39,251 nt of DNA from a virus: IMG/VR virus record IMGVR_UViG_3300017687_000002, positions 1 to 39,251 of that record, one strand, 5' to 3'. This document shows, one piece after another, positions 35,179 through 38,095 of the stretch. Position numbers and translations under genes: made by a program. The notes beneath the pieces are model-generated. The model searched no databases and was not told the DNA's origin. It was given only the letters and a program-made list of their open reading frames with translations. Within the stretch, counting starts at the first letter, position 1; each line of letters begins with the position of its first letter.

Positions 35179-35577
35179 GTGGCTGAAGTGAAGGGGCTTT
35201 CCCCCGATGCCGAAATTGAAACCAACACCCAAGGGGGCAAGCAAAGCGCCGTGGGCTATGCCTTCCACCTTTTACCCGTCAACGCCATGTTTGGTCTGGC
35301 CGGGGTCCTCAAGGAAGGGCTGGTCAAGTATGACCGCGACAACTGGCGCAAGATCAGCGCTGAAGAGCATATCAACCATATGATAGGCCACGCTTTAGGC
35401 ATCATGGCCGGGGACACCAGTGACGACCACTTCGGGCATATGCTCTGCCGGGCGGCCATGGCTTACGAGTGTCAGTCAGCCGGGAATATGTGGGAAGACG
35501 GCCACCCACCCCCCTTTCTAAGCGCAAAAGAAGAGCCCGCCACGGGCCAGATCATTCCCCAACCATCTAAGAGATAG
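35179..35577 (+). CDS. DUF5664 (MazG-like dNTP pyrophosphatase-family) protein
   Basis: The 132-residue product starts with GTG after AAGGAGG. GGKQSAVGYAFHLLPV (about 19-34), GLVKYDRDNWRKI (about 47-59) and HINHMIGHALG then SDDHFGHMLCRAAMA match the phage family annotated as dATP/dGTP diphosphohydrolase N-terminal (DUF5664), related to all-alpha NTP pyrophosphatases. A role in trimming or remodelling dNTP pools is plausible and fits with ThyX elsewhere on the phage. Confidence 0.8.
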   Translation: MAEVKGLSPDAEIETNTQGGKQSAVGYAFHLLPVNAMFGLAGVLKEGLVKYDRDNWRKISAEEHINHMIGHALGIMAGDTSDDHFGHMLCRAAMAYECQSAGNMWEDGHPPPFLSAKEEPATGQIIPQPSKR

Positions 35578-35869: not shown

Positions 35870-35965
35870 GTCACGGTTTTGTCACAGGAAAGGCGAATTT
35901 TGGCGTTTTGCGGCAGTCGTCACGTTCGTAACTAGCTGAAATCATTACCTGACATGCCAGAAATT

Positions 35966-36015
35966 TGCGTTCGGGACGCAGGGGTCGCTGGTTCAAATCC
36001 AGTCGTCCCGACCAA
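35966..36015 (+). repeat. attachment-site repeat, copy 1 (3' half of tRNA-Pro CGG)
   Basis: A 50-bp perfect match to copy 2 at 38046-38095. It runs from the anticodon stem (loop TTCGGGA, anticodon CGG) through the T arm (GGTTCAAATCC) and acceptor strand (CGTCCCGA) to CCA. The sequence to its left is phage, and no tRNA 5' half is present, so it is a fragment at an element boundary. The gap around it (35870-36145) holds no gene I can support. Confidence 0.92.
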
Positions 36016-36028
36016 TAATTTCAATGAG

Positions 36029-36058
36029 ATAGCCCAGGGAGCATGTTCCCTGGGCTAT
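36029..36058 (+). terminator. Perfect 12-bp hairpin after att copy 1
   Basis: ATAGCCCAGGGA at 36029-36040 pairs with TCCCTGGGCTAT at 36047-36058. Only a short T stretch follows. It may be a tRNA terminator carried with the attachment site, or a boundary hairpin. Confidence 0.6.
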
Positions 36059-36145
36059 ACTTTCGTGACAGTTCTGTGCCAAAGATGCTTGCATCCAGAA
36101 TGAATAGCCACCAGTAAGCCAACTAATGTCTAGGTAAAAATATTG

Positions 36146-36175
36146 TTGACAAGCGAAAAAAAAGCGTGCTATTCA
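36146..36175 (+). promoter_or_regulatory. Sigma-70 promoter with extended -10
   Basis: TTGACA at 36146-36151, an 18-bp spacer and TATTCA at 36170-36175, preceded by TGC (extended -10). Transcription should begin near 36182 and run into the structured leader of the NYN gene. Confidence 0.7.
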
Positions 36176-36181
36176 CTTGCG

Positions 36182-36295
36182 AGACTCCTGTGAGGTGCTC
36201 ATACTATATATGAAATCAACTTAGAAACTGTCCTGCTTCTTCGGAGGCAGGTCTGTTAACCGCCGGGGCCTGCGTGCAGTCCCCGGTATTTTTTT
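36182..36295 (+). ncRNA. Candidate small RNA or leader RNA before the NYN gene
   Basis: Between a strong promoter and an intrinsic terminator lies a segment of about 114 bases with no convincing reading frame. It contains a hairpin with a C(UUCG)G tetraloop (36232-36239 with 36244-36251), followed by the terminator hairpin. It may be a free-standing RNA or an attenuator leader. No match to a known RNA class is claimed. Confidence 0.5.
36263..36295 (+). terminator. Intrinsic terminator 7 bp before the NYN start
   Basis: CCGGGG at 36263-36268 pairs with CCCCGG at 36281-36286, with a small inner stem (CTG/CAG), followed by TATTTTTTT. The NYN ATG follows at 36303 without a clear ribosome-binding site, so expression should depend on read-through. 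Confidence 0.8.
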
Positions 36296-36302
36296 GTGAA
36301 CA

Positions 36303-36872
36303 ATGACTGAAGAACAAACCAAAAAGAAGGCTGCGCTGTTCATTGACGGAAGTAACCTTTATAAGCGACTGCAATATAGTGGGATTCGCAAGGGTAATAT
36401 CGACTACGCTCAATTTTCCCGAAACCTCATTCTAGATAGGCACTGGGTTGGCACTTATTTTTATATCGCGCCAGTTCGTAAGCAAGATGGGGTTGAAACT
36501 TATCAGGCCCAACAGCGTTTTTTCTCTGCACTTCGTGGGACCAAAGGCATCAATTTAAAGCTGGGCACCCTAGTGAAACGTCAGAACGAATGTGGCCAGT
36601 GTGGCTACAGACACGAATTCCTCCTGGAGAAGGGCGTTGATGTCCAGTTAGCTGTCGACATGATTGCCATGGCATCCCAGGACGCTTATGATGTGGCTTA
36701 TCTTGTCTCAGCCGATTCCGATTTTATTCCAGCGGTGGAAATGATTCGATATGATTATAAAAAACAAGTCTTTTGTGTCGCTCCCAAAGGTGCCAAATAC
36801 GGCAAGCTAGGTAATGCCTGCAACACAGCAATTCCAATTGACCAGAGTTTCATAGACGGTTGCCAAGTCTAA
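36303..36872 (+). CDS. NYN-domain (PIN-like) ribonuclease-like protein
   Basis: NYN/LabA-type proteins have a PIN-like fold with acidic residues that bind a metal and cut RNA. The 189-residue product has ALFIDGSNLY (D15), GVDVQLAVDM (D113, D119) and SADSDFIPAVEMI (D138, D140), the expected acidic set, plus a CGQC pair (C97, C100). The start is ATG 36303, with no Shine-Dalgarno and a terminator just ahead. It is more AT-rich than the phage genes. It converges on the integrase gene with 8 bp between their stops. It is probably cargo, possibly a defence or regulatory nuclease. Confidence 0.88.
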   Translation: MTEEQTKKKAALFIDGSNLYKRLQYSGIRKGNIDYAQFSRNLILDRHWVGTYFYIAPVRKQDGVETYQAQQRFFSALRGTKGINLKLGTLVKRQNECGQCGYRHEFLLEKGVDVQLAVDMIAMASQDAYDVAYLVSADSDFIPAVEMIRYDYKKQVFCVAPKGAKYGKLGNACNTAIPIDQSFIDGCQV

Positions 36873-36880
36873 TAAAATCT

Positions 36881-37933
36881 TTAACAACCGCCTAGCCTCT
36901 CCACAAATTCACCCCTCAAGTCTGGGACAACGTGTGCGTATAGTTCAGTTGTCCGCTCGGTAGAATGTCCCAGATAAGATGCTATCACATGCATAGGGCA
37001 GTTGGTCATAGCAAGACGGGTTGCGAATGTATGCCGAAAGGAGTGCCATCCTACCCCCGGCCTCCACAATTCAGTCTGCTTGAGCAAATCACGCAGGACC
37101 TTCGTGGCGTACCGTTCGTCTCTGTGACGTGTACCAAAGATGTAGGGGCCATTGAGGCCATTTTCAACGCCGCTTCGATACCATAAATCTAGTTCAACTT
37201 CGAGAAGACTTGCCATCGGCACTTGCCTGGACCTGTAAGTCTTTGTGTGGAAATCACCGCTGGCTCTCACTTGGATGTAGTGGGCAGCCCATACAACGTC
37301 ATCCCAAGACAGGTGGCATAACTCTGCCCTGCGCAACCCGGTGTACGTAGCGGTCAGAGCCATATAATAAAGCCAAGGTGGGCCACCACGGGCCCCCTCA
37401 AGAATCTTCTGCACTTCATCGGAGCGCCAATAAACCGGAGTTTGGTCTTTTGGTACACGAAATTTTTTAACCCGAGCAGCCGGATTCATTGCCAGGTATC
37501 CCCACTCGACCGCAAGCCCGAGGGCGTGCTTGATGGTTTCCAACTCCCTACTGACAGTCCTTGGGCTAACCAATTTACGTCTGGAAATTTTGTATTCCTC
37601 AACGGTCTTGGCCTTCAGGGCTCCCAGCCAAACAACACTTTCCGAGCCTAGAAAGGGCAAAAAGTGACACTCGATAGTGGTCTTGTCCCTTAAAAAGCTC
37701 TGATGCCGCTTGTTGGTTTCCGAATATTTGAGGTATTCAGCAAAGAATTCTGTAGCTGGTACAGATGTCGGGAGCGGTTCCCACTCTTCCTTAGCAGCCC
37801 TTGAGATCAGTATTGCGGCTCGCCGTGTCGCCTCGTCTCGGTTATTGGTCTTCAGGGAACGGCGCACCCTGATTCCCGAGGTGCAGAAATCCACCCAATA
37901 GGTCCCCTTTTTCCCCCGCTGGAATAGCTTCAT
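36881..37933 (-). CDS. int: Tyrosine recombinase (integrase)
   Basis: The 350-residue product catalyses site-specific recombination between attachment sites. All catalytic residues are visible: R201 (TGLRRAEL), K231 (HTKTYRSRQVP), H297 and R300 (HSFRHTFATR), H323 (LGHS) and Y332 (ELYAHV). An N-terminal arm-binding region (about 1-50) and a core-binding SAM-like domain (about 60-155) come first. Its 5' end is 113 bp from att copy 2 and it points leftward. It is the only integrase in the window, within the short interval between the repeats. Confidence 0.95.
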   Translation of the reverse strand: MKLFQRGKKGTYWVDFCTSGIRVRRSLKTNNRDEATRRAAILISRAAKEEWEPLPTSVPATEFFAEYLKYSETNKRHQSFLRDKTTIECHFLPFLGSESVVWLGALKAKTVEEYKISRRKLVSPRTVSRELETIKHALGLAVEWGYLAMNPAARVKKFRVPKDQTPVYWRSDEVQKILEGARGGPPWLYYMALTATYTGLRRAELCHLSWDDVVWAAHYIQVRASGDFHTKTYRSRQVPMASLLEVELDLWYRSGVENGLNGPYIFGTRHRDERYATKVLRDLLKQTELWRPGVGWHSFRHTFATRLAMTNCPMHVIASYLGHSTERTTELYAHVVPDLRGEFVERLGGC

Positions 37934-38045
37934 CGCCGGATAGGCCCTTTTGATTTTGTGTCAGATTTGCGCCAGAACCTTGGAAATATGTGCCCATTAT
38001 ATCACCTTAACATGCAGTATATACTTGAAATCATTCGGTTTTTAC

Positions 38046-38095
38046 TGCGTTCGGGACGCAGGGGTCGCTGGTTCAAATCCAGTCGTCCCGACCAA
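38046..38095 (+). repeat. attachment-site repeat, copy 2 (3' half of tRNA-Pro CGG)
   Basis: Identical to copy 1 over 50 bp. Here the base before the repeat is C, completing a 5-bp anticodon stem (CTGCG/CGCAG), but the D arm and acceptor 5' strand are still missing. A normal intrinsic terminator follows, so this copy probably marks the junction with the original host DNA (attR-type end). Confidence 0.92.

Follow-up and report, generated by a model that had tools for sequence, protein, structure and literature searches.

A hairpin RNA and terminator ahead of a viral NYN nuclease gene recur beside NYN genes of bacteria, phages, plasmids and archaea and suggest an undescribed RNA-controlled nuclease system

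Introduction

To our knowledge, only a handful of toxin folds have an RNA antitoxin, namely the ToxN-like fold, the HEPN fold of AbiF and the AvcD deaminase. In type III toxin-antitoxin loci (ToxIN, CptIN and TenpIN) a single promoter is followed by an RNA, a rho-independent terminator and the toxin gene, as set out in PMC5086642. In the phage-borne AbiF locus of C. difficile a HEPN nuclease gene is preceded by an RNA of 98-132 nt, in which two hairpin motifs are described, and by a terminator (PMC12373285). According to PMC10511110, AvcID resembles the module described here in joining an RNA antitoxin to a protein outside the ToxN family, and differs from it in that the toxin is a deoxycytidylate deaminase and in that its authors' predictions place no terminator between RNA and gene. 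A NYN-family ribonuclease acting on small RNA is found in Bacteroides fragilis, where it is CRISPR-associated; for this protein crRNA trimming in a Cas10 system is proposed, and the abstract of PMC11346440 mentions no dedicated upstream hairpin RNA. Finally, the defence-candidate models HEC-09 and NYN of PADLOC, both of which match the protein studied here, name the protein alone, and we found no described RNA partner for them.

Here we describe a module at the right end of a 39,251-base virus record, IMGVR_UViG_3300017687_000002 (the whole of which is referred to as the window), where prophage late genes are followed by an RNA-NYN segment. With type III loci it shares a small structured RNA, a rho-independent terminator, a nuclease gene and a frequent location on mobile DNA, and the order of antitoxin-like RNA segment, terminator and ORF that a first-pass annotation had pointed out is real in the window and conserved next to NYN homologues. 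It departs from them in that the nuclease is NYN/PIN-like rather than ToxN-like and the RNA consists of two dissimilar hairpins with no tandem array of direct repeats, and for these two reasons the module lies outside the type III definition and is not a type III member. In addition, the RNA of the NYN family sits downstream on the other strand in some loci, and inhibition is something that we only infer here. Closer still is the likeness to AbiF/RCd22, a phage-borne system in which the nuclease gene follows a promoter, an RNA of about 100-130 nt that contains two hairpin motifs, and a terminator (PMC12373285); the differences are a HEPN nuclease in place of NYN, another RNA motif and a ribosome-binding site ahead of the AbiF gene, which the NYN gene of the window lacks.

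Results

The nuclease belongs to the NYN family

The protein encoded by the module matches PF01936 at 72.9 bits, against a curated cut-off of 24.2, and is recognized by both the PADLOC HEC-09 profile (E 1.1e-27, residues 8-182) and the PADLOC NYN model. Its AlphaFold model (mean pLDDT 92.3) has 2qip as nearest structure (Z 20.4, rmsd 2.8, 162 aligned) and superposes on the NYN domain of MARF1 (Z about 17, rmsd 2.4-2.5, 144-145 aligned), which places the protein in the NYN family and outside both the ToxN/CptN/TenpN fold and the HEPN nucleases typified by AbiF. Four acidic residues of the kind that marks a PIN-like active site, D15, D113, D138 and D140, are the same in every row of two alignments of relatives (12/12 and 20/20 rows), and we take them, from what is known of the NYN family, to be the catalytic residues. 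Peptide scans with the single protein found no NYN relatives in the genome and viral contigs, and the relatives used below came from alignment-guided scans of such contigs. They are located on phages, plasmids and integrative elements, and a single genome may carry as many as 11 (G009) or 7 (G017) paralogues.

Anatomy of the leader

Both the UUCG-capped hairpin and the intrinsic terminator reported 7 bp before the NYN start are found in the leader (Table 1), and the reported absence of a ribosome-binding site is borne out by the 7-nt spacer between T-tract and ATG, GTGAACA, in which we read no purine-rich Shine-Dalgarno site. The stretch holding both hairpins (36226-36295) folds at -33.4 kcal/mol (z = -4.7) and none of 200 dinucleotide shuffles equals this energy, so the two hairpins exceed what chance would give; the longer leader, 36183-36302, reaches z = -2.3, with 8 of 200 shuffles equal. 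The hairpins are spaced 11 nt core to core, and hairpin 1 lacks the mismatch of hairpin 2, which is at once the intrinsic terminator and a member of the NYN-associated hairpin family described below. A generic terminator scan of the window did not pick up this terminator, presumably because of the 1x1 mismatch and the TA ahead of the T-run; a looser finder did, at -16.8 kcal/mol.

Upstream of the hairpins, the promoter that the earlier annotation called strong is weaker than claimed. The -35 box is perfect and stands, but the -10 box, 18 nt on, matches the consensus at 3 of 6 positions, which we count against a dedicated partner RNA, and a sigma-70 scan of the window does not have the pair among its listed sites; a TG one base 5' of TATTCA would give an extended -10. 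A 114-base RNA is plausible if transcription starts where this candidate promoter would place it. No Rfam family matched the window at gathering score, and among 10 and 13 relatives Rfam reported only RNAI, tRNA and int-alpA, all away from the leader. A hidden protein antitoxin was considered and set aside, as every ORF in 36016-36302 is short (24-65 aa) and runs into the repeat, the hairpins or NYN.

Table 1. Features of the RNA-NYN module and of the segment that surrounds it (window coordinates)
Feature	Position	Strand	Details and basis
Direct repeat, left	35966-36015	+	50 bp, att-like, 3' part of tRNA-Pro(CGG); identical to right repeat
Inverted repeat	36029-36058	.	15 bp, just inside left repeat; sequence comparison
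Candidate promoter	36146-36175	+	TTGACA (36146-36151), 18 nt, TATTCA (36170-36175); sequence reading, absent from sigma-70 scan list
Predicted small RNA	36183-36295	+	start placed by candidate promoter, end at T-tract
Hairpin 1	36226-36257	+	core 36232-36251, 8 bp, UUCG loop; fold
Hairpin 2	36262-36287	+	7-bp lower stem, C-U 1x1 mismatch (36269/36280), 3-bp upper stem
Terminator T-tract	36289-36295	+	seven T; sequence reading
NYN-domain nuclease gene	36303-36872	+	189 aa, PADLOC HEC-09-like; profiles, AlphaFold model
Tyrosine integrase gene	36881-37933	-	convergent to NYN; PF00589 E 2.9e-23, phrog_1 E 1.8e-56
Direct repeat, right	38046-38095	+	50 bp, att-like; exact copy of left repeat

Terminators precede NYN genes well beyond chance

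Conservation of the hairpins beside NYN homologues had been named in advance as a point on which the proposal could fail, and the outcome is favourable: a terminator ends 0-60 nt upstream of 68 of 171 NYN genes, as against 73 of 1,064 other ORFs in the same loci (Fisher p 9e-27). The excess persists where the upstream gap is at least 120 nt (44/96 NYN genes against 27/375 other ORFs, Fisher p 2e-17) and where the upstream gene is divergent (20/45 against 14/175, Fisher p 6e-8), the latter comparison being informative because the neighbour's own terminator cannot account for the signal. Consensus promoters (at least 10/12) lie ahead of the terminator in 15 of 59 NYN cases and 2 of 68 controls. 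Of ten distant relatives read directly (L003-L012, nine plasmids and one phage contig; L013 was left out, as it starts too near the record edge), nine have a terminator whose end lies 9-28 nt upstream of the NYN start, the exception being the Streptomyces plasmid L011. The arrangement of RNA, terminator and NYN is thus conserved well beyond chance, though not everywhere, and the 103 of 171 NYN genes without such a terminator, among them most of those from Dehalococcoidia, are counted against a dedicated partner RNA.

A mismatch hairpin accompanies the NYN subfamily of the window

The relatives include the subfamily to which the window protein belongs (group II) and a second, HEC-09-like subfamily (group I). 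A 1x1 mismatch following 5-8 bp of stem is present in 13 of 28 group II terminators, in 10 of 69 controls and in none of 31 from group I, and the same hairpin, terminating or not, lies upstream of 36/137 group II genes, 6/86 group I genes and 80/1,237 control genes. In the remaining 101 of the 137 group II genes it was not found upstream, which again is counted against a partner RNA. The element consists of a 6-7 bp stem, the 1x1 mismatch, an upper stem and a UUA..CC flank, and the hairpins share a 5' flank (AUUAUCUC, AUAUACCC, GUUAACCG in the window, and similar) that was outside the search criteria. Of the 10 pairs in an alignment of 21 hairpins, 9 vary on both sides, a count biased toward pairing because the hairpins were picked for pairing. 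In L014, L023, L028 and L095 two units are present with an A/U-rich linker between them, and hairpins 1 and 2 of the window are similarly spaced. Several of the 11 NYN homologues of G009, the small bacterial genome to which L031 belongs, have a mismatch hairpin upstream.

A covariance model (R1) was built from these 21 rows, the window included, after six of 27 (L063, L087, L056, L076, L248 and L252) were removed; the hairpins of L177 and L238 were never in the alignment. R1 recovered L056, L076 and L248 at E <1e-4 and L063 and L087 only at E 0.4-0.6, and listed neither L252 nor L238. Hairpin 2 of the window, itself one of the training rows, scores 38 bits (E 3e-8). The model was run on 81, 90 and 61 loci, and the held-out loci that it found include L017 (E 4e-9), L269 (3e-8), L264 (4e-8), L023 (2e-6) and L033 (4e-6). 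Of 108 rows 73 were analysed; the others were opposite-strand shadows of the palindrome, further copies from loci that already had a row, or the weakest hits. Of the 73, 62 lie within 300 nt of NYN. By position relative to NYN, the same strand accounts for 47 upstream and 3 downstream rows, the opposite strand for 2 upstream and 10 downstream rows, and 11 rows are far. Among the far rows are hairpins that in fact adjoin NYN but overlap an ORF whose start was called too far upstream: L260, L263, L264 and L267 are the same genome places as L272, L278, L281 and L279, where they adjoin NYN, and L043 starts at its NYN frame.

In the window the element is in cis, as a part of the leader; in the family it is not always so. 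In the ten loci in which it is downstream on the opposite strand (L024, L032, L033, L045, L046, L094, L217, L246, L247 and L250) flank and loop are oriented as for an RNA transcribed from that strand, and because of this placement the element cannot be the 5' leader of NYN there. We also considered that the hairpins might be terminal inverted repeats of a transposable unit, and rejected this since, among the downstream-opposite loci, only L045 has the element on both sides of NYN.

R1 was then applied alone, with no protein information, to 87 whole DPANN genomes and found 18 places, of which 13 are less than 100 nt from a NYN frame; one of these (L276) adjoins a NYN gene that is cut by the contig end and falls below the reporting threshold of the protein search. 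The other five have no NYN in the stretch fetched and are counted against a partner RNA. In 25 genomes known to carry NYN, R1 has a place in 20, and 22 of 26 places, 24 of which were examined, adjoin NYN or a NYN fragment (18, plus L287 and the second copies in G003, G014 and G017); L304 and L305 are not beside NYN.

Group I has its own RNA

Group I is found on small plasmids of E. coli and Klebsiella (3.5-4.6 kb), on plasmids of Leptospira and on many phage contigs, and its RNA is a two-hairpin type of its own, different from the group II element. A second hairpin ends at most 3 nt from the terminator hairpin in 22/34 group I loci and 12/69 controls. Over 11 aligned members 9 of 16 pairs vary on both sides and 92% of cells pair; a 16-row alignment was partly misaligned, and L096, L143, L125, L168 and L107 were removed to reach the 11. 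The E. coli plasmids varied too little to show covariation, 12 of the 13 records being at least 95% identical.

A few NYN relatives are like type III loci in having tandem RNA repeats. In the 4.6-kb E. coli plasmid L007 a 33-nt hairpin unit is repeated 3.5 times (1081-1193) before terminator and NYN, which by its sequence is the most type III-like anatomy among the loci seen, and tandem units also occur in L023 (35 nt x 1.9; also L200) and L095 (45 nt x 2.1). Tandem repeats as a general feature upstream of NYN were rejected, 7/223 NYN upstream regions against 19/801 others giving no enrichment; this, like the two unlike hairpins of the window, is counted against a partner RNA.

The module lies in a 2-kb segment between tRNA repeats

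The first-pass annotation spoke of nuclease cargo, and the description fits: the two att-like repeats delimit 2,080 bp in which the only recognisable genes are the integrase and RNA-NYN. Another virus contig, L306, carries a complete tRNA-Pro(CGG) at 220-296, at the left end of its prophage; 49 bases in the 3' part of this tRNA are the same as in the window repeat, and the bases directly 3' of it match those after the internal repeat of the window. Because tRNA repeats flank NYN and integrase and the layout of L306 agrees, the segment appears to be a minimal integrative element, or what is left of one after shrinkage, inserted in tandem with the prophage. It could also be a deleted relative, given a left end that resembles L306. 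For a deleted second copy of the same phage we found no support, the sequences before the right-hand repeats agreeing over 19 bp only, at 79%.

Some further observations concern this region. L306 has a hairpin directly after its repeat, in the place of the inverted repeat of the window, and a minus-strand integrase-like ORF, a layout that parallels the small element. The 19-bp motif (35928-35946 and 38017-38035, 79% alike) lies at a similar distance before both right-hand att-like repeats and possibly represents integrase arm sites common to phage and small element. At the end of the prophage late region, 35179-35577 encodes a protein with the N-terminal domain of a dATP/dGTP diphosphohydrolase.

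Discussion

We propose a model in which a stand-alone structured small RNA is the dedicated partner that restrains the NYN nuclease, as addiction or phage-defence cargo, and to which we give about an even chance. The model is put forward because the anatomy equals that of type III operons and, more closely, that of the AbiF locus. Its foundations, the anatomy itself, the conservation of the RNA element beside NYN and a nuclease fold with invariant acidic residues, are observed; from these we infer expression, RNA-protein binding, inhibition, toxicity and biological role. The leader RNA, with two hairpins in the window of which the second would serve also as terminator, would be produced in excess, most transcripts stopping at the terminator, and the few that read through, or that start nearby, would yield the nuclease. 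The RNA would hold NYN inactive by binding it, the contact being, at a guess, made through the mismatch hairpin together with the UUA..CC flank. Upon loss of the RNA, whether by phage shut-off of host transcription or by loss of the element, the PIN-like RNase would be freed. In this the module would resemble type III toxin-antitoxin and AbiF/RCd22 loci, and the small integrative element would carry it for addiction or for defence against phage.

The alternative with most in its favour, which we nevertheless consider rather unlikely, is that the hairpins form a 5' leader or attenuator that NYN binds or cuts to control its own readthrough, with no role in trans. The RNA is upstream in cis in most loci (47/73 rows), a terminator 7 nt ahead of a start codon that lacks a Shine-Dalgarno site means that NYN is expressed through readthrough or antitermination, and NYN proteins are RNases, the CRISPR-associated one cutting ssRNA (PMC11346440). 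Against this stand the ten loci with the element downstream on the opposite strand (one of which, L045, does have one on each side) and the window leader itself, in which no competing antiterminator fold was found, the minimum-energy fold making up 0.53 of the ensemble and being identical to the centroid. The hairpin is moreover retained in DPANN archaea, where bacterial-type intrinsic terminators are not expected and where we know of no use for them. The ten loci and the DPANN occurrence are the reasons for which we favour a stand-alone RNA over the attenuator that the earlier annotation had offered as its second option; for the window itself, whose copy is in cis, the preference over an attenuator is less certain.

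It is improbable, in our judgement, that the RNA, instead of inhibiting NYN, activates or targets it as the cofactor in a defence ribonucleoprotein. Such a role would suit the match to the PADLOC HEC-09 and NYN defence-candidate models, the location of relatives on phages, plasmids and integrative elements and the many paralogues in several genomes, but the RNA has no variable guide-like segment, its conserved flank, stem and loop leaving little free sequence, and we found no published defence test. That the hairpins do no more than terminate or insulate, keeping readthrough out of a mobile-element gene of low expression, with a structure that reflects GC-rich termination only, is very improbable: upstream terminators do occur among control ORFs and the left att side may need insulating from the prophage late genes, but the enrichment holds with a divergent upstream gene, the position of the mismatch and the UUA..CC flank are conserved while neither is needed for termination, and R1 matches cluster in NYN neighbourhoods.

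In the open-access full-text literature, which leaves subscription papers and preprints mostly outside, we found no NYN protein paired with an upstream RNA or RNA antitoxin and no paper joining the terms type III toxin-antitoxin and NYN, in agreement with the initial remark that NYN proteins are not a known partner in loci of this kind. The architecture is known; what appears to be new is the nuclease superfamily, the RNA family, the archaeal occurrence and the variable position of the RNA gene. More broadly, NYN nucleases of at least two subfamilies may be the protein half of undescribed and widespread RNA-controlled modules, composed of an RNA antitoxin and a PIN-like RNase, which in bacteria are carried by phages, plasmids, chromosomes and small integrative elements and which occur in DPANN archaea as well, with the RNA gene shifted to the far side of NYN in some archaeal and other lineages, a generalization that in our estimate could fall either way. 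If true, NYN/PIN-like proteins would be a new nuclease superfamily among the partners of RNA antitoxins, and RNA-neutralised nucleases would probably reach archaea. It would also provide a testable function for HEC-09, a defence candidate for which we found none, and account for the lone nuclease gene on tiny plasmids and on the 2-kb element.

Two minor observations concern the surroundings of the element. In the DPANN locus L277 a textbook copy of the RNA element (1501-1545) has no NYN within 1.5 kb on either side, and the neighbouring ORFs are AbiE-like by eye. In L014, the closest bacterial NYN relative has an Rfam int-alpA RNA (2703-2774) about 1.2 kb upstream, which suggests a mobile-element context.
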